Made by a program: the position numbers and the translations under genes. The notes beneath the pieces are model-generated. The model made no database searches and had not been told where the DNA came from. It was given only the letters and a program-made list of their open reading frames with translations. A stretch of DNA of 64,000 nt from Pseudomonas sp. HAR-UPW-AIA-41 (lineage in GTDB: Bacteria; Pseudomonadota; Gammaproteobacteria; Pseudomonadales; Pseudomonadaceae): positions 310,001-374,000 of the forward strand of contig NZ_NSLB01000002.1 of NCBI RefSeq assembly GCF_002304225.1, written 5' to 3'. Shown one piece after another: positions 5,782-21,323 of this stretch (its first letter is position 1; each line of letters opens with the position of its first letter).

Positions 5782-7310
5782 CAGCCCTGATCGACCACGC
5801 CCAACAGATCTGGGACATCCCCGGCGGCATCCACCCGGCCGAGTGCAAGACACTCTCCAACGGCTCGCCCATTCAACAGGCTCCACTGCCCCGCCAGTTG
5901 ATCGTACCGCTCAACCAGCACATCGGTGCGGCGGCCGAACCCTGCGTGGCGGTGGGTGACCGCGTACTCAAGGGCCAGTTGATCGCCAAGGCCAATGGCT
6001 TTGTCAGCGTCGCCGTGCATGCGCCAACGTCCGGACTCGTCAGCTTTATCGGCCCGCAGCCCTACCCGCATGTTTCCGGCCTGCCGGCGCCGGCCATCGT
6101 GATCGACAGCGATGGCCAGGATGAGTGGGGCGAGCTGGCGCCCTGCCCGGACTACCGCCAGCTGGACAGTGAGGCGTTGCTGGCGAAAATCCGCGATGCC
6201 GGTATCAACGGTCTTGGCGGCGCCGGTTTCCCCACCGCCGTCAAACTCAAGGCCCGTGCCGCCCAGAAAATTCATACCCTGGTGATCAACGGCACTGAGT
6301 GCGAGCCCTACATCACCGCCGATGACCTGCTGATGCGCGAGTACGCCGCCGAGCTGGTTTCCGGCATCGACATTCTGGTGCAGCTGATCCAGCCCGATGA
6401 AGTGCTGATCGGCATCGAGGACAACAAGCCCGAGGCCATCGCTGCCGTGCGCGCCGCGCTGACCGAGCGCAGCTACACACTCAAGGTGTTCCCGACCAAG
6501 TACCCGTCCGGTGGCGAGAAGCAGCTGATCCAGATCCTCACCGGCCGGGAAGTCCCCAGCGGTGGCCTGCCGGCCGATATCGGCATCGTCTGCCAGAACG
6601 TCGGCACCTGTGTGGCCATCCATGACGCAGTGGTGCACGGCAAACCGCTGATCGAGCGCATCACCACCCTCACCGGCGAAGCGCTGGCACGCCCCGGCAA
6701 CGTGCGCGCGCTGATCGGCACCCCGGTGGGCGAACTGCTTGCCTTTGCCGGCCTGGATGAGCGCAAACTCAACCGTCTGATCATGGGCGGGCCGATGATG
6801 GGCTTCACCCTGCCCTCGCTGGATGTGCCGCTGATCAAGACCAGCAACTGCCTCTTGGCCTCGACCCGTCAGGAACTGCCGACACCGCCGCCCGCCATGG
6901 CCTGCATCCGCTGTGGCGAGTGCGCCGAGGCCTGCCCGGCCAGCCTGCTACCGCAACAGCTGCACTTCTTTGCCCTCGGCCAGCAACACGACCAGCTCAA
7001 GGCGCACAACCTGTTCGACTGCATCGAGTGCGGCGCCTGTGCCTATGTCTGCCCGTCGAGCATTCCGCTGGTGCAGTACTACCGCGCGGCCAAGGCCGAG
7101 ATTCGCGAACTGGAACAGAAGCAGCAGAAGGCCGAACACTCCAAGCAGCGTTTCGAATGGCGCCAGGAGCGTCTGCGCCGCGCCGAAGAGCAGAAGGAAG
7201 CCGAGCGCATCGCCCGTGCCGAGCGTGCCGCCAAAGCCAAGGCGCCCAGGCCGAAGCCGCCACTGCGACTGCCGCGCCCTCGGCCGCCGATGAGCAGATC
7301 AAGCGCCTGA
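5778..7310 (+). CDS. rsxC: Electron transport complex subunit RsxC/RnfC, frame broken near its C terminus
   Basis: The NADH-side subunit, with a flavin/NADH-binding fold related to complex I NuoF, including [13 protein letters not shown]. Two [4Fe-4S] motifs have cysteines 376/379/382/386 and 415/418/421/425. The start is the ATG at 5778, which overlaps the rsxB stop. The frame stays RnfC-like to about codon 489 (near 7244), then becomes a proline/arginine-rich run that stops at 7310 (510 codons). From 7244 the typical lysine/alanine-rich RnfC tail continues in another frame to 8257. Adding one nucleotide near 7244 would restore a protein of about 826 aa. The catalytic part is complete either way; the break is a real indel or a sequence error. 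Confidence 0.9.
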
Positions 7311-12261: not shown

Positions 12262-12873
12262 CTAGAACCAGCCGGTGATGGCCGCCTTGGTCTTGCCCAG
12301 CAGCACCAGGGTGTTGAGCTTGAACAGCGCCCAGCTGTCGCCCTCCTCCAGCACTTCCTCCCCGCAGCGCGGATCGGAACGTTGCAGGGCGCCGATCATC
12401 TTGCGGGTCACCGGGATGGATTCGCAGCCATGCCCCGTTTCGCAGACAAAATCCCAGGGCTGGCGCGCCGGGGCATGGCAGGCAAAGCAGTTGCCGCCGA
12501 AGCGGTTGTTGACCTCGGCAAAACCCCGTGCGCGCACAGTGGAACCCTTCTCGCTGACATCCAGCTCGAAGAACTCCCAGTCACCGGTAGCCGGGCTGAA
12601 GCCGGCCTCGCGCTTGACCATGACCTCACTGGGCACCAGCTGCACCACCGAGCCCGGCGGGTAGATCGCCCCCTTGGGTGCATTGGCCGCCGCCAGAGTG
12701 CCTTCGAGGTTGCCCAGCAGGTTGTCGACATAGAAATGCCGCACCGGAGTCATCTCACGGATACAGCGGAAGCTGTCCGCCCCGACCTTCATGGCCTCAC
12801 CCGCCGCCGTCAGGCTCAAGGGCAACAGGCTCAGGCTGACGGTCAACAGCGCGGCTCGATTGAAGTGTTTCAC
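12262..12873 (-). CDS. Periplasmic single-haem c-type cytochrome, cytochrome P460-like
   Basis: A 203-aa protein with an N-terminal signal peptide (cleavage near residue 24) and one haem c motif, CFACH, at 129-133. SPATGDWEFFELD upstream and GNCFACHAPA resemble the cytochrome P460 family, though the crosslinking lysine is not assigned here. Four further cysteines (37, 144, 150 and one later) may form disulfides. Its start overlaps the stop of the molybdopterin oxidoreductase by 4 nt, so the two are co-translated and probably exchange electrons. Its stop codon sits in the flank of a MITE insertion. The family call is tentative; the signal peptide and haem site are plain. Confidence 0.7.
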   Translation of the reverse strand: MKHFNRAALLTVSLSLLPLSLTAAGEAMKVGADSFRCIREMTPVRHFYVDNLLGNLEGTLAAANAPKGAIYPPGSVVQLVPSEVMVKREAGFSPATGDWEFFELDVSEKGSTVRARGFAEVNNRFGGNCFACHAPARQPWDFVCETGHGCESIPVTRKMIGALQRSDPRCGEEVLEEGDSWALFKLNTLVLLGKTKAAITGWF

Positions 12874-14978
12874 AGGCTGGTCACCTCCACAGGTACGCCA
12901 TTGAGTGCGGCATTGCCGGACAGCTCATCCAGAAAGCGCTCGTCGGTCAGATCGTTGGCACTGGCACCGGGTTGCGCGCTGGCAATGGCCATCCGCACCC
13001 CGGCCCGGTTGTGCCCCCAGCCATGGGGCAGACTGACCACCCCACGCATCACCTCGTCACTGCCGGCCACCTCCACTTCCACGCTGCCAACCCGCGAGCG
13101 CACCTGCACCCGCTGACCATCGTCCAGGCCACGGGCGGCCAGGTCGTCCGGGTGCATCAACAGCTGGTGACGGGGCTTGCCCTTCACCAGACGGTGGTAG
13201 TTGTGCATCCAGGAGTTGTTGCTGCGCACATGGCGACGGCCGATCAGCAGCAGTTCGCCACCGGCCGGCTGCGGCTGGGCCGCAAAGCGCGACAGATCGC
13301 CCAGCAGCAGCGCCGGAGCGGCCTGCACCTGCTTGTCGGCGGTTTTCAGGCGAGCGGCCAGGTTGGGCCTGAGCGGGCCGAGATCGATACCGTGAGGGGC
13401 ATCGCGCAGTGCCGCCAGACTGAGCTTGTGCTCGCTCTTGTCGCCATAGGGGCCAAAGCGCAGGCCCATGTCGATCATCTGTTGCGGTGCCATGGTCGGT
13501 TTCAGTTCCACACCGGTGCGGGCGGCAAAGGCCTTGGCCAGACCGATGAAGATTTCCCAGTCATGCAGCACGCCCTCCGGCTTGGGCAGCACCGCCTCGT
13601 TGAAGCGGGTGACATTGCGCACGGCAAAGACGTTGAAGGTGGTGTCGTAGTGATCATGCTCCAGCGGCGCGGTCGGCGGCAGGATCAGGTCGGCGTAGCG
13701 GGTGGTCTCGTTGATGTACAGGTCCACCGAAACCATGAACTCCAGCCCCTCCAGCGCCTGCTCCAGCTGCCGGCCATTGGGTGTGGACAGCACCGGGTTG
13801 CCGGCCACCGTGACCAGCGCGCGCACCTGCCCTTCACCGGGCGTGAGCATTTCCTCGGCCAGCGCCGCGACCGGCAGTTCGCCGCCGTACTCCGGCAGGC
13901 CGGACACGCGGCTCTGCCAACGGTTGAAACTGCCACCGGAGGTAGCCGCCACCAGATCCACCGCCGGCGAGGTGCAGAGCACGCCGCCTTCGCGGTCGAG
14001 GTTGCCGGTGACCAGATTGATCAGCTGCACCAGCCACTGGCACAGGGTGCCGAAGGCCTGTGTGGACACGCCCATGCGTCCGTAACAGACCGCCTTGTCG
14101 GCGGCGGCGAACTCCCGCGCCAGCTGGCGGATGGCGCTGGCGTCGATACCGCAGCGCAGCGCCATGGCTTCAGCCGTGAACGGCGCGATGGCCGCGCGCA
14201 CTTCGTCCAGCCCCACCACCGGCAGGTGAGTGGCGCGACCAAGGTTTTCCTCCAGCAGGGTATTGAGCAGCCCCAGCAGCAGCGCGGCGTCCTGCCCGGG
14301 ACGGATGAAAAGGTGCTGATCGGCAATGGCCGCCGTCTCGCTGCGCCGGGGATCGACCACCACCAGCCTGCCGCCGCGCTTCTGGATGGCCTTGAGGCGC
14401 TTCTCCACGTCCGGCACGGTCATGATGCTGCCATTGGAGGCCAGCGGGTTGCCGCCGAGGATCAGCATGAAATCGGTATGGTCGATGTCCGGGATCGGAA
14501 TCAGCAGACCATGGCCATACATCTGCAGGCTGGTCAGGTGATGCGGCAGCTGGTCCACCGAGGTGGCCGAGAAGCGGTTGCGCGTCTTCAGCAAGCCGAG
14601 GAAGTAGTTGCTGTGGGTCATCAGCCCGTAGTTGTGCACGCTGGGATTGCCCTGATACACCGCCACGGCGTTCTGCCCATGGGCCGCCCGAATCGAACTC
14701 AGGCGTTCGGCAACCAGTTCAAAAGCTTCGTCCCAGCCGATGGCCTGCCACTCGCTGCCGATCCGGCGCATGGGCTGGCGCAGGCGGTCCGGGTCATTCT
14801 GGATATCCTGCAGGGCGACCGCCTTCGGGCAGATATGGCCGCGGCTGAAGCTGTCCTGGGTATCGCCCTTGATCGACAGGATCTGCACGCCGCCCTGCTC
14901 ATCCGGGGCGGTCTCGATGGTCAGGCCGCAGATGGCCTCGCACAGGTGGCAGGCACGGTGATGCTGGGTCTTGCTCAT
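12870..14978 (-). CDS. Molybdopterin oxidoreductase with N-terminal [4Fe-4S] cluster
   Basis: A 702-aa member of the DMSO reductase superfamily. Cysteines 10, 13, 17 and 50 bind an N-terminal [4Fe-4S] cluster. The molybdopterin dinucleotide domains are represented by [20 protein letters not shown] and a C-terminal dinucleotide-binding domain with NSWMHN and [10 protein letters not shown]. There is no twin-arginine signal, so it is expected in the cytoplasm, although its operon partner is exported. The ATG at 14978 ([13 protein letters not shown]) has GAGG 7 nt upstream; a start at 14990 would add MRLA. It is formate-dehydrogenase- or nitrate-reductase-like in fold, but the substrate is not readable. 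Confidence 0.88.
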
Positions 14979-15122
14979 GGCTAACCTCATTTTTGTAGGC
15001 GAGACGACCGGTCGGGTCAGTCCATGCCCGCCAATCTAAAAAGCCCTGGCTCTGCTGACCAGCCTATCGTGACAGCTGAATCCCCCATCATCAGGCCGGT
15101 CGATGGGCGGCCGGTGCCTGAT

Positions 15123-18097: not shown

Positions 18098-18315
18098 GGC
18101 GATTCTCCTGAGTGTTCACTGATGCAGCATGGCGCAGTCACACCCGAGAGCTGCCATACAGCGGACCCGAAAATGGGCATAACAGCCAGGCAACTGCACA
18201 AAGGCAAAGCATATGGCTGCCTCGGGCCACCTGCCCTGACACTGCAAAACCGCAACAATTCGTTAATAAACAAGACACTAGCGTAACTGGCATAGTCTCT
18301 GCTTAGTCCAGCCCC

Positions 18316-18403
18316 GGACAGCACAACGGCGTGTCTGCCAACCCGACAACGACGTCACGAAGCCCGCTCTGATCAGAGATGGCGGCTCGTGGCGTTTTTT
18401 TTT
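18316..18403 (+). promoter_or_regulatory. Candidate ANTAR (NasT-type) antitermination leader with intrinsic terminator
   Basis: This lies in the 331-nt gap between the PhzF gene and the porin gene. Hairpin P1 has stem GCAC/GTGT (18321-18324 with 18331-18334) and hexaloop AACGGC. Hairpin P2 has stem GAC/GTC (18345-18347 with 18354-18356) and hexaloop AACGAC. Both loops have A at position 1 and G at position 4, the rule for ANTAR-protein RNA targets. The right arm of P2 is also the start of a terminator stem (18353-18364 with 18384-18394) followed by nine T, so P2 and the terminator exclude each other. The start codon is 26 nt after the T-run. The P2 stem is only 3 bp. The rest of the gap (18098-18315) shows nothing I can assign. 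Confidence 0.6.
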
Positions 18404-18428: not shown

Positions 18429-19712
18429 ATGCGTCTTCACACTCTCTCCGTCCTTTCTCTGGCCGTCTGCGGCGCTTTCAGCAGCGGCGCCATGGCCGCC
18501 GAAGAGCTGGCCAATCTGGTCGAATTCGGCAAGGTCAACGTCGACGCCCGCTACCGCTACGAGCACGTCGATCAGGACAACGCCCTCAACAACGCCAACG
18601 CCCAGACCCTGCGCACCCGCCTTACCGTACAGAGCGGCAAGTGGTACGGGCTCTCCGGCCTGGTCGAGGCGGACAACGTCAGCCGCATCGGCGATGCCTC
18701 CTACAACAGCACCCGCAATGGTCAGAAAGACTTCTCGGTGGTCGCCGACCCGGACGGCAGCGAGATCAACCAGGCACTGATGCGCTATGACTTCAAGAAA
18801 GGCAACGTGGTCGCCGGCCGCCAGCGCATCCTGCTGGACAACCAGCGCTTCATCGGCGGTGTGGCCTGGCGCCAGAACGAGCAGACATTCGATGGCGTGC
18901 TCGGCCAGGTCAAACCGCTGACCGGCATGACCCTGACCTACGGCTACATCGACAACGTCAACAGCATCTGGGGCCCGGACGACAACCGCTTCGACAACAA
19001 GACCAACCCGGCCAATATCGAAGGCCACAGCCACCTGTTCAATGCCCAGTACATCCTGATGCGTGATCGCCGCGGCGCGCCGCAGCTGACCCTGACCGGA
19101 TACAGCTACCTGCTGGGTCTGGACAACATCGCCACTACCGCCGCCGCGCCGCTGGGCAGCCTCTCCAGCCGCACCAATGGCCTGCGCGCCACCGGTGCCA
19201 TCGGCCCCTTCAGCCTGGTCGGCGAATACGCCCAGCAGCAGGACTACGCCGACAATCCGATGGATCTGGACAGCGAGTACTACCTGGCCGAGCTCGGTTA
19301 CACCTGGCAGGGCGTGGTGTTCAAGGGCGGCTACGAGGTGCTCGGTGGTGATGAAGGCGCCGGCAACCGTGCTTTCCAGACGCCACTGGCCACCAAGCAC
19401 CTGTTCCAGGGCTGGGCTGACGTATTCCTCACCACCCCGGCCGACGGCATCGAGGACGCCTATGTCGGCGTCACCGCGCCCCTGCTGGGTGGTCAGGTCC
19501 AGGCCTGGTACCACGACTACAGCGCCGAACAGGGCAGCGACAGCTACGGTGACGAGATCAACCTTTCCTACGGCCGCCCCATCCCCGCCGTACCGGGTCT
19601 GGTCGCTCTGGTGAAGTACGCCACCTACGACGCCGACACGCCACTGCTGCGCGGCAATGTCGCCAACGTCGACACCGACAAGCTCTGGCTGCAACTGCAG
19701 TACACCTACTAA
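18429..19712 (+). CDS. Outer-membrane beta-barrel porin, alginate-export-like family
   Basis: A 427-aa protein with a signal peptide cleaved near residue 24 (GAMA|AEEL). The mature chain is full of alternating aromatic/polar strands, for example VDARYRYEHVDQD, LTYGYIDNVN and AQYILMRDR, and ends in the terminal-strand signature LWLQLQYTY with a final aromatic residue. The pattern fits the Alginate_exp porin family (AlgE-like barrels), whose members serve many small anions as well as alginate. No alginate genes are present. The ATG at 18429 follows AAGGA. The putative ANTAR leader suggests control by a nitrate-type signal, making a nitrate/nitrite porin an attractive inference. Confidence 0.8.
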   Translation: MRLHTLSVLSLAVCGAFSSGAMAAEELANLVEFGKVNVDARYRYEHVDQDNALNNANAQTLRTRLTVQSGKWYGLSGLVEADNVSRIGDASYNSTRNGQKDFSVVADPDGSEINQALMRYDFKKGNVVAGRQRILLDNQRFIGGVAWRQNEQTFDGVLGQVKPLTGMTLTYGYIDNVNSIWGPDDNRFDNKTNPANIEGHSHLFNAQYILMRDRRGAPQLTLTGYSYLLGLDNIATTAAAPLGSLSSRTNGLRATGAIGPFSLVGEYAQQQDYADNPMDLDSEYYLAELGYTWQGVVFKGGYEVLGGDEGAGNRAFQTPLATKHLFQGWADVFLTTPADGIEDAYVGVTAPLLGGQVQAWYHDYSAEQGSDSYGDEINLSYGRPIPAVPGLVALVKYATYDADTPLLRGNVANVDTDKLWLQLQYTY

Positions 19713-19768: not shown

Positions 19769-20569
19769 ATGCGTCAACTGATCTCACGCAGCCTGCTTGC
19801 CCTCAGTCTCAGTCTGGGCAGCCTGCCCTGCTGGGCGGTAATCAACGATGCCGAAGCGATGAACCTGTCCGGCATGCAACGCATGCTCAGCCAGCGCATC
19901 GCCAAGAGCTACCTGATGATTGGCAGTCAGGTTCGCCCGGACGTGGCCAATCAGCAGCTCGATCAGAGCCTGGCCAAGTTCGAAAGCAACTACCTGGCAC
20001 TCGGCGAATATGCCCCCAGCGAGGAAATTCGCCGCGAACTGCAGGTCGTCGAGAATCTCTGGCACGAGTACCGCAATCTGGTGCTGGAAACCCCGGACAA
20101 AAAAGGCGCGACCGAAGTGCTGGCACAAAGCGACCGCCTGCTGGCCCAGTGCGAAAAAGTGGTCAAGCTGATCGAGGCTTACACCGGCAGCCGCTCGGCA
20201 CAACTGGTGAACCGCAGCGGCCGGCAACGCATGCTCAGTCAGCGCATTGCCAAGCTTTACCTGGCCATGAGCTGGCATGTCCCCGTCGCCGGTCTGGAGC
20301 AACAGTTCAATCAGGCAGTAACCGAGTTCGATACGGCGCTGGGCCAGCTACAGACTGCCGAAGAGAACACCCCGGCCATTACCGAGGCACTGAAGAAAGT
20401 CGATGCCCAGTGGGCTTTCTCCCGCGCCGGCTTCAAGCTGTCCAACGACTCGCGCTATGTGCCGACCGTCATCAGCACCACCACGGAAACCCTGTTGTGG
20501 CAGATGAACGACCTGACCACCGCCTATGAGGGAGTGATGTCCAGTCGCTTGGTCAGCGCCCTTCCCTGA
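19769..20569 (+). CDS. Periplasmic protein with two PilJ/NarX-like sensor domains in tandem
   Basis: A 266-aa protein with a signal peptide (cleavage after about residue 23, PCWA). It contains two copies of the type IV pili/NarX-like N-terminal domain. The first has GMQRMLSQRIAKSYL near residue 36 and the second GRQRMLSQRIAKLYL near 152. In NarX/NarQ and PilJ this motif forms the start of a four-helix periplasmic sensor. There is no transmembrane helix beyond the signal and no output domain, so it is a free-standing periplasmic sensor or binding protein. It follows the porin by 56 nt with an AAGGAG site. Its last 17 nt overlap a convergent gene. Confidence 0.78.
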   Translation: MRQLISRSLLALSLSLGSLPCWAVINDAEAMNLSGMQRMLSQRIAKSYLMIGSQVRPDVANQQLDQSLAKFESNYLALGEYAPSEEIRRELQVVENLWHEYRNLVLETPDKKGATEVLAQSDRLLAQCEKVVKLIEAYTGSRSAQLVNRSGRQRMLSQRIAKLYLAMSWHVPVAGLEQQFNQAVTEFDTALGQLQTAEENTPAITEALKKVDAQWAFSRAGFKLSNDSRYVPTVISTTTETLLWQMNDLTTAYEGVMSSRLVSALP

Positions 20570-21323
20570 CCCCGTAGCGCTCGAGCAGAGCTTGCATCCG
20601 GCCATCGGCTCGATAACGCTGCAGCCCCTGATCGAGCAGCTGCACATAATCGCGACTGCGCGGCAGGGCCGGAGAGAACGCCAGGTAAATGGGAATATCC
20701 GGCTGCTGACAACCGGCATGACGCACCGTGCCGCTGTAGCCACGCCGGGCCAGGTACTCCTGCATCACCCAGCTGTTCTCCAGCACCACATCAACCCGCC
20801 CCTCCAGCAGTTTGGCCAGGTTCAGCGCCAGCGCGTGCTGGCCTGCCGACGCCTGCAGACGCTGCGGGTTGCCCTGTTCGGCCTGCACGTAAGCATCCAG
20901 CTCCTCGCCGTAGCTGTAGTCGTTGACCACGGCCAGACGCTGCGTATGCAAGGACTTCAGGGAATCAAAATGCCACTGGCTCTCCCGGACGGTGTAGAAG
21001 CAGTTGCGTGACTGGCTGACCGGCTGAGCAGTGAAGACGAAGTCCGGTGCATCACTGCGCGCGGCACCGATGACCGCATCGATATAGCCATACCGCGCTT
21101 CATGCAGGGCCCGCGCCCAGTTGATCACACGGTATTCGACGCTGATGCCGGCCTCGGCAAAGATGTCACGGGCCAGCTCGACATAGATGCCCGGCCGGGG
21201 CGAATCAGGCGCGCAGTTGACCGGGCACCAGAGGTCGCCGGCAATCACCAGGGTTTCCCCCGGCGCCTGCCCGCTCAGCAGCAGTGCGGCAACACCCAAC
21301 CATGCCTGCCTGACTCTCCGCAT
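20553..21323 (-). CDS. Periplasmic solute-binding protein, amino-acid family 3 (SBP_bac_3)
   Basis: A 256-aa protein with a signal peptide (residues 1-22, GQAPGE) and a family 3 binding domain. The start is LVIAGDLWCPVNCAP, with GIYVELARDIFAEAGI and SQSRNCFYTV as typical lobes. Unusual cysteines occur in WCPVNC and later RHAGC. There are no permease genes next to it. It starts 19 nt after the glpK stop on the same strand, so it may be in one transcript with ybaK-glpK, though no glycerol link is known for this family. It overlaps the convergent sensor-domain gene by 17 nt. Confidence 0.8.
   Translation of the reverse strand: MRRVRQAWLGVAALLLSGQAPGETLVIAGDLWCPVNCAPDSPRPGIYVELARDIFAEAGISVEYRVINWARALHEARYGYIDAVIGAARSDAPDFVFTAQPVSQSRNCFYTVRESQWHFDSLKSLHTQRLAVVNDYSYGEELDAYVQAEQGNPQRLQASAGQHALALNLAKLLEGRVDVVLENSWVMQEYLARRGYSGTVRHAGCQQPDIPIYLAFSPALPRSRDYVQLLDQGLQRYRADGRMQALLERYGVREGR

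Follow-up and report, generated by a model that had tools for sequence, protein, structure and literature searches.

A predicted NasT-type nitrate leader before a porin gene in Pseudomonas

RESULTS

A two-hairpin leader precedes the porin gene

The window, a 64,000-nucleotide stretch of DNA from Pseudomonas sp. HAR-UPW-AIA-41, holds a predicted porin gene, a gene for a tandem-PilJ protein behind it and, in front of it, a leader with two small hairpins and a terminator (Table 1). Read from the sequence, the first hairpin (P1) is formed by GGACAGCAC (18316–18324) and GTGTCTGCC (18331–18339); four pairs, one of them G-U, adjoin the loop in the window sequence, and the RNAalifold consensus of porin leaders gives eight pairs with one bulge per side. 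The second hairpin (P2) has a stem of only 3 bp, GAC at 18345–18347 and GTC at 18354–18356. This short stem was named as a weak point in the original prediction, made earlier from the letters alone, but the P2 stem is equally short in the leaders before nasS and nrtA. Both hexaloops have A at position 1 and G at position 4, as predicted, and with stems of 3 bp or more the two hairpins fit the pattern that marks ANTAR targets. The run of nine T after the terminator stem was also called correctly, and 25 nt, rather than the predicted 26, separate it from the ATG at 18429.

When the segment from P2 to the terminator was folded for 28 leaders (24 porin leaders and four other leaders of the same genome), the terminator took up the 3' arm of P2 in all 28. 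The second hairpin and the terminator are thus mutually exclusive, in agreement with the original prediction. The fold energy of the leader is ordinary (z −1.06; 31 of 200 shuffled sequences fold as well), and its lowest-energy fold has P1 in a shifted register.

Table 1 Features of the porin locus (window coordinates)
Feature	Coordinates	Strand	Evidence
Putative sigma54-type −24/−12 promoter	18288–18302	+	Sequence; invariant TGGCA and CTGC columns in porin leaders
ANTAR-type hairpin P1, hexaloop AACGGC (18325–18330)	18316–18339	+	Sequence, alignment, consensus fold, covariation across paralogous nitrate leaders
ANTAR-type hairpin P2, stem GAC/GUC, hexaloop AACGAC (18348–18353)	18345–18356	+	Sequence, alignment
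Intrinsic terminator, 5' arm from within loop 2, uses 3' arm of P2, nine T (18395–18403)	18351–18403	+	Folding, consensus
Porin, Alginate_exp (PF13372), predicted barrel, proposed nitrate/nitrite channel	18429–19712	+	Pfam, model, paralogue, homologue context
Tandem-PilJ protein, proposed periplasmic nitrate-binding protein	19769–20569	+	Pfam, motifs, profile and fold matches

A promoter-like element, absent from the original prediction, lies upstream of the hairpins. Sigma54 promoters follow a −24/−12 consensus at a characteristic distance from the start site. The sequence TGGCATAGTCTCTGC (TGGCAT-AGTCTC-TGC) places GG at 18289–18290 and GC at 18301–18302 with ten bases between them, and this GG-N10-GC pattern keeps its position relative to the leader: in 44 of the 78 rows that yielded a distance, TGG and loop 1 are 37 nt apart. 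By eye, a comparable element precedes P1 in all four other leaders of the genome. The element is expected, from its sequence, to act as a sigma54-type promoter; taking C18302 as position −12, the RNA would start near 18314, two bases before P1. Many porin leaders have an NtrC-like site about 100 bases before the promoter; the site in the window is weak, with 17.5% of shuffled sequences scoring as well.

The leader is related to narK RNA

The Rfam narK RNA model (RF03032) aligned to 18289–18358 with 38.1 bits (E 5.1e-6 for the 64-kb window) and was the sole Rfam match in the window. Across the genome (3.72 Mb), the leader ranked second of 20 matches at E ≤ 10, with E 1.7e-5. The covariance-model check proposed with the original prediction thus came out significant by E-value, and the score stayed below the Rfam gathering score of 43.2 bits, so a default Rfam scan of the window listed nothing. 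We therefore treat the leader as a divergent relative of RF03032 and do not file it as a member. The genome's own nasS, nrtA and nirB leaders likewise score under the gathering threshold.

We also built a hairpin-only model (R1), trained on non-porin leaders alone. In the window, R1 placed the leader first of 17 matches (E 0.0023); genome-wide, it ranked only ninth of 22 (E 0.13). In 942 kb of sequence, R1 recovered 20 of the 22 complete porin leaders described below at E ≤ 1 (E 0.009–0.61) and matched leaders in L072, L079 and L083, along with several sites that are unexplained or were taken as chance. One match, L012:8698 (27 bits, E 0.0006), is antisense within a solute-binding-protein gene; a 12-bit match at window 21129–21169, also antisense in a solute-binding-protein gene, was taken to be the same place, and both were set aside as chance. 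R1 is too weak by itself to serve as independent proof. Taken by themselves, the hairpins carry little weight as evidence; what supports the leader is the full anatomy and its conservation.

Four sister leaders and one ANTAR protein in the same genome

Besides the porin leader, leaders of the same build precede narK, nirB, nasS and nrtA in this genome, and all five consist of the promoter element, two hexaloop hairpins, an overlapping terminator and then the gene. Four of them match RF03032 with E < 1e-4: narK (61.6 bits), the porin leader, nasS (37.9 bits) and nrtA (36.8 bits). The nirB leader reached only 21.8 bits (E 0.11) and was recognized as a full leader by eye. NarK and NirB pass their NCBIfam cut-offs, and the reductase encoded after nirB resembles assimilatory reductases, below the cut-offs of those models. 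The proteins that we take to be NasS and NrtA, largely from gene order, are NMT1-like binding proteins. The porin lies away from the nas/nir genes, as predicted; nirB is on the same contig, about 268 kb away.

The genome has a single ANTAR match, a receiver-plus-ANTAR protein encoded directly after nasS. This protein is NasT; AmiR or another ANTAR protein as the regulator was rejected, because there is only one ANTAR gene. With four sister leaders, one ANTAR protein and a conserved anatomy, the original reading as an ANTAR/NasT-type attenuator is well supported and largely right. The presence of ANTAR genes does not discriminate between genomes: they occur in 10 of 12 genomes with leaderless porins and in 19 of 21 with leaders (L030 and L046 left out of the latter). 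The two leader genomes without one, G058 and G072, belong to the metagenome-assembled loci L013 and L045.

The leader is conserved before orthologous porins

We examined the best 80 of 581 porin-homologue loci (L numbers; these overlap in part with the sampled genomes, G numbers). In 23 of the 80, a sigma54-type promoter and P1 lie before the porin gene, and 22 of these also have P2 and the terminator. In an alignment of 24 rows (the 22 complete loci, the window and G014), TGGCA, CTGC and P1 are invariant or nearly so, as are the T run and the greater part of P2. A1 and G4 are kept in both loops in 22 of the 24 rows, loop 2 lacking G4 in L033 and A1 in L061. The proposed comparison of orthologous leaders therefore bore out both hexaloops and the terminator overlap, with L033 and L061 (loop 2) and L046 as exceptions. 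The last, an Atopomonas porin locus, has the promoter and P1 205 bases before position 6001 and no P2 or terminator of this kind. RNAalifold gave the terminator ten pairs, two of them changed on both sides, with pairing mostly kept as the stem varies. It also paired parts of the promoter, which we take as an artefact, since the promoter should not be transcribed.

Among 199 Pseudomonas genomes, 12 have the porin, in 14 copies. The leader stands before 10 of the 12 copies outside the source genome, or 11 of all 14 counting the window; the copies without it are the C11 copy of the source genome, G136:C48 and G234:C5. A model of the porin leaders (R2) scored the leaders of 11 porin copies at 113–139 bits. 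Because R2 was trained on the window row and on relatives of the sampled genomes, it matches porin leaders by construction, and only its narK matches are independent. R2 found a match at E ≤ 0.001 in 163 of the 199 genomes. Among the R2 matches listed, 27 in G001–G035 coincide, by eye, with RF03032 hits, and a NarK gene lies beside 26 of these 27 sites, the G008 site falling outside the gene check. Recovery of narK leaders by R2 indicates that the kinship of porin and narK leaders is recognizable throughout, from the promoter through the hairpins to the terminator.

An independent case of a leader before a porin is L072, from an uncultured gammaproteobacterium, where a NasT relative (41%) is followed by a two-hexaloop leader and then the porin. 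There, P1 has 7 bp, the stem sequences differ and the promoter pattern search returned no sigma54 element; two further leaders precede nirB-like (33%) and nrtA-like genes.

Several other loci carry partial or altered versions. L174 (G234:C12:22500–25200) is a decayed porin–PilJ locus whose P1 and P2 are kept, with the −12 part of the promoter and the T run degraded; its leader scored 108.5 bits with R2. In four porin loci from gammaproteobacterial nrt/nasT clusters (L067, L069, L071 and L090), a sigma54-like element lies about 100–250 bases before position 6001, followed by a P2-like hexaloop hairpin overlapping a terminator and no clear hexaloop P1, all judged by eye. Two Nitrospirota porin homologues (L068 and L091), which adjoin genes weakly like NirB (34%), have hairpin-plus-terminator leaders about 100–200 bases before position 6001.

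Covariation in nitrate leaders of relatives

In relatives, leaders precede narK, a relative of nitrate reductase (41–44% identical), nasS-nasT and nrtA; in G014, a leader of this nitrate kind precedes the porin and PilJ genes. We aligned 38 of 57 distinct non-porin modules, including the source genome's four other leaders. The module count leaves out L148 and L149, where no nitrate gene was found alongside, and L046, for want of P2. The loops were located by a pattern demanding A and G, with ten missed rows cut by hand, so the loop tallies are partly built in.

Across the 38 modules, 92% of P1 cells are paired and five of six P1 pairs show changes on both sides. The covariation score over both hairpins was 0.474 against 0.144 in shuffled alignments, none of 500 reaching it, and at most 0.121 when the pairing was slid. 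The number of pairs with both-side changes was reached by 203 of 500 shuffles and the number of further pair types by 84 of 500, so that neither of these two measures stands out from the shuffles. Covariation, another check proposed with the original prediction, is therefore strong for P1 across paralogous nitrate leaders; within the porin leaders P1 shows none, because it does not vary there, and the nearly invariant P2 is uninformative.

RF03032 matches the window leader over its whole length; GGCA...TGCT, the CAACGGCG loop and the CGACAA-GACGUC segment are all part of the match. The Rfam model pairs the first hairpin only, whereas we read the window leader with P2 at the end of the model. 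Given the anatomy of the sister and relative leaders and the covariation of P1, the narK RNA is best read as a putative sigma54 promoter (its first ~17 positions) followed by the P1 and P2 of an ANTAR dual hairpin. In the literature searched, which did not extend to the original description of narK RNA, we found no published ANTAR-leader reading of it.

The porin has a twin in a respiratory nitrate locus

The porin matches PF13372 marginally (25.7 bits, gathering score 25.2), so the original label of alginate-export-like porin is right as a Pfam name; the second copy described below scores 32.0 bits. Among the best 80 of 581 homologues, its nearest named relative is from Pseudomonas fluvialis (90% identical). 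The AlphaFold model (pLDDT 79.9) is a barrel nearest to OccK/OprD porins, with AlgE first appearing at rank 38. OpdQ of Pseudomonas aeruginosa is a member of the OprD family. A role in alginate export was rejected on these fold ranks and on the neighbouring genes, which point to nitrate.

A second copy, C11:203882–205114 (L161:8879–10126), is 80% identical to the window porin and has no leader. Around it lie genes for a PilJ-HAMP-MCP chemoreceptor, a Crp-type regulator that we take to be Dnr-like, NarL, a NarX/NarQ-type kinase, two NarK-type transporters, and NarG. Of these, NarL, NarG and the second NarK pass their cut-offs, and the kinase falls under them. NarL and NarX relatives accompany the porin in ten of the best 80 loci; of the genes in the nar locus, L016 has the chemoreceptor, regulator and carbonic anhydrase alone, and L035 the regulator alone. 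The two-hexaloop leader is missing from all 12 of these loci. The second copy in L161 has no PilJ-only gene behind it, and relatives such as L016 have one.

In Pseudomonas sp. 8AS, two porin copies at different loci (L024:6001–7242 and L034:6001–7230) are 97.2% identical, the first 150 bases at 81% and the remainder at 98–100%, which suggests recent gene conversion sparing the 5' end. With the source-genome pair at 82.9%, conversion is indicated for one species and would be an extrapolation for others. In the porin tree, leader-bearing and nar-locus copies mix by lineage (seven changes each, against shuffled means of 15.7 and 11.5), and the idea of a single clade of leader-bearing porins was dropped.

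Among more distant homologues, six (L067, L069, L071, L079, L088 and L090) clearly lie beside nasT, nrtABC, nirB or narK relatives; the context is less sure in L072 and L083, and L049 has only weaker NasS/NrtABC-like matches. Many of the 80 loci have no such relatives within the stretch examined. Plasmid records held only distant relatives, of the porin in 22 records (all <60% identity) and of the PilJ protein in two. Taken together, the nar-locus twin, the homogenized copies, the nas/nrt context and the barrel model make a nitrate/nitrite channel the likeliest reading of the porin.

The tandem-PilJ protein resembles nitrate-binding proteins

The protein encoded behind the porin begins with what resembles, by eye, a signal peptide and has two PilJ domains; Pfam found no kinase, receptor-signalling or RNA-binding domain in it. 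The "NarX-like sensor-domain protein" of the original prediction can thus be refined to a tandem-PilJ protein that is probably secreted. Both halves have N-box-like motifs (SGMQRMLSQ and SGRQRMLSQ). The strict N-box, [IVL]-[ND]-x-A-G-x-Q-R-M-L-[ST]-Q, is matched by neither, S replacing A in both domains; domain 1 also has M in the first place, and QRMLSQ with its key arginine is kept. Among 29 homologues, four have the strict N-box, in domain 1 only, and 28 have the relaxed (S/A)GxQRMLSQ in both domains.

A profile search of the PDB gave two matches, the better being the PilJ domain of McpN (E 2.5e-9) and the other a designed helical barrel. Foldseek with the PilJ model (pLDDT 89.7) returned nothing at E ≤ 0.001, with NasR and McpN within the top seven. 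In VIA-align, NasR was the best full-length fold match (Z 20.6, 3.1 Å over 237 residues), and McpN scored lower per domain (Z 16.8). Helical bundles without clear kin typically reach a best Z near 14; against this baseline the NasR match is notable, yet it falls short of demonstrating nitrate binding. The protein may bind nitrate in the periplasm.

R61 of the McpN N-box binds nitrate across the dimer, and the two PilJ domains of the PilJ receptor itself, which have no N-box, do not bind nitrate (excerpts of PMC6381276). In contrast to McpN and NasR, the window protein is a free tandem-PilJ protein whose N-boxes have S for A.

DISCUSSION

We consider it highly probable, at roughly 87%, that 18288–18403 controls the porin gene in the manner of a NasT (ANTAR) leader for nitrate assimilation. 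Under nitrogen limitation, the sigma54 promoter would start the message near 18314. In the absence of nitrate, NasT would be held by NasS, and the terminator would halt transcription before the porin gene. Nitrate or nitrite would free NasT to bind P1 and P2; once P2 has formed, the sequence that begins the terminator would be occupied and transcription would read through into the porin. The tandem-PilJ gene is probably in the same message. The arrangement suggests that cells using nitrate as their nitrogen source make the porin together with a helper protein that probably binds nitrate. We infer the use of sigma54 and NtrC, NasT binding, the nitrate response and the operon from this arrangement; that the porin passes nitrate or nitrite through the outer membrane, and that the PilJ protein binds nitrate in the periplasm, is put forward with less assurance.

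The kind of leader is already known. According to excerpts of the papers cited here, ANTAR targets such as those of NasR (nasF), AmiR (amiE) and EutV (eutP) have two hairpins with A1/G4 hexaloops, each stem at least 3 bp long, and an intrinsic terminator (PMC3369931), and the second hairpin excludes the terminator (PMC3369936). The window leader is alike in hairpins, hexaloops and terminator; it differs in the gene controlled, a porin with a tandem-PilJ protein away from the nas genes. In Paracoccus, NasT binds the nasA leader RNA once nitrate splits NasS-NasT (PMC3795266), and the leader requires its hairpin I there (PMC5424462). In Pseudomonas putida, growth on nitrate requires nasT (PMC7261876), and in Pseudomonas stutzeri nas expression requires NtrC (PMC8443478). 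Transfer of the NtrC and NasS-NasT mechanism to the window leader would go by analogy with these systems. In a nasT mutant of Bradyrhizobium, narK, which has a predicted NasT hairpin, went up (PMC6759348), so leader-like hairpins need not all respond as expected.

A chance pairing of two unrelated hairpins before an ordinary terminator would suit the unremarkable fold energy, but we rate its probability as negligible. The genome-wide E-value speaks against it, and conservation of the promoter, both loops and the terminator before orthologous porins, in 22 further loci and G014, rules it out. It is also improbable, though less extremely so, that we are looking at an attenuator that has decayed or become constitutive, at which NasT is inactive or another factor acts. 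The score below the narK gathering threshold and the genome-wide E-value of the hairpin-only model would fit such decay. Against it, the porin leaders retain the promoter, both loops and the terminator, the terminator stem varying with its pairing mostly intact, and the −12 part of the promoter and the T run are degraded at the locus where the porin itself has decayed (G234:C12); the genome also has no further ANTAR protein.

What the porin carries is a separate matter. We give slightly less than even odds to a dedicated outer-membrane nitrate entry module: the porin together with a periplasmic tandem-PilJ protein whose two N-box arginines would clamp nitrate, in the way of a free NasR NIT domain. 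The module would exist in two copies that differ in regulation: NtrC/sigma54 and NasT antitermination would govern the one for assimilation, and the other would belong to the NarXL/Dnr respiratory locus, with gene conversion keeping the pore protein the same and the control regions apart. Alternatively, the leader may be a real NasT target and the porin a channel for general or other substrates, such as organic nitrogen sources, riding on the nitrogen-limitation regulon. The nearest barrels are compatible with this, since solved OccK/OprD members include vanillate and glucuronate complexes, as is the marginal match to Alginate_exp. We nevertheless regard a general channel as rather unlikely: the paralogue lies among NarXL, NarK and NarG genes rather than nitrogen-starvation genes, distant homologues lie in nas/nrt clusters, and the neighbouring protein is McpN-like.

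The new elements are the gene controlled, its nar-locus twin, the homogenized copies and the interpretation of narK RNA as a promoter plus an ANTAR leader. For the NasS-NasT systems of Paracoccus, Azotobacter, Pseudomonas and Bradyrhizobium, the excerpts of PMC6759348 and PMC5424462 name no porin target; one outer membrane protein in the former was raised, not lowered, in a nasT mutant. The phrase "nitrate porin" and similar ones did not occur in the literature searched. The nearest published idea that we met is OpdQ, a P. aeruginosa porin under NarXL that nitrate raises and that its authors suggest as a route of nitrate entry (PMC4694141). OpdQ is regulated through NarL in low oxygen, and the excerpt makes no mention of a leader or NasT, whereas the window porin has a NasT-type leader.

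To our knowledge, nitrate passage across the outer membrane has been little studied. A porin that shares the putative nitrate RNA switch of transporters and reductases and has a twin in a respiratory nitrate locus is a concrete candidate for nitrate entry. For the narK RNA, in turn, a sigma54 promoter followed by NasT antitermination becomes the likely mechanism, and NasT regulons throughout Pseudomonas could then be annotated more sharply. The neighbourhood of the window porin also includes, at 12262–14990 on the minus strand, a molybdopterin oxidoreductase with likeness to formate dehydrogenase and NasC (under cut-offs), together with a protein weakly resembling cytochrome P460; in many relatives, too, an oxidoreductase of similar type lies upstream of the leader-bearing porin.
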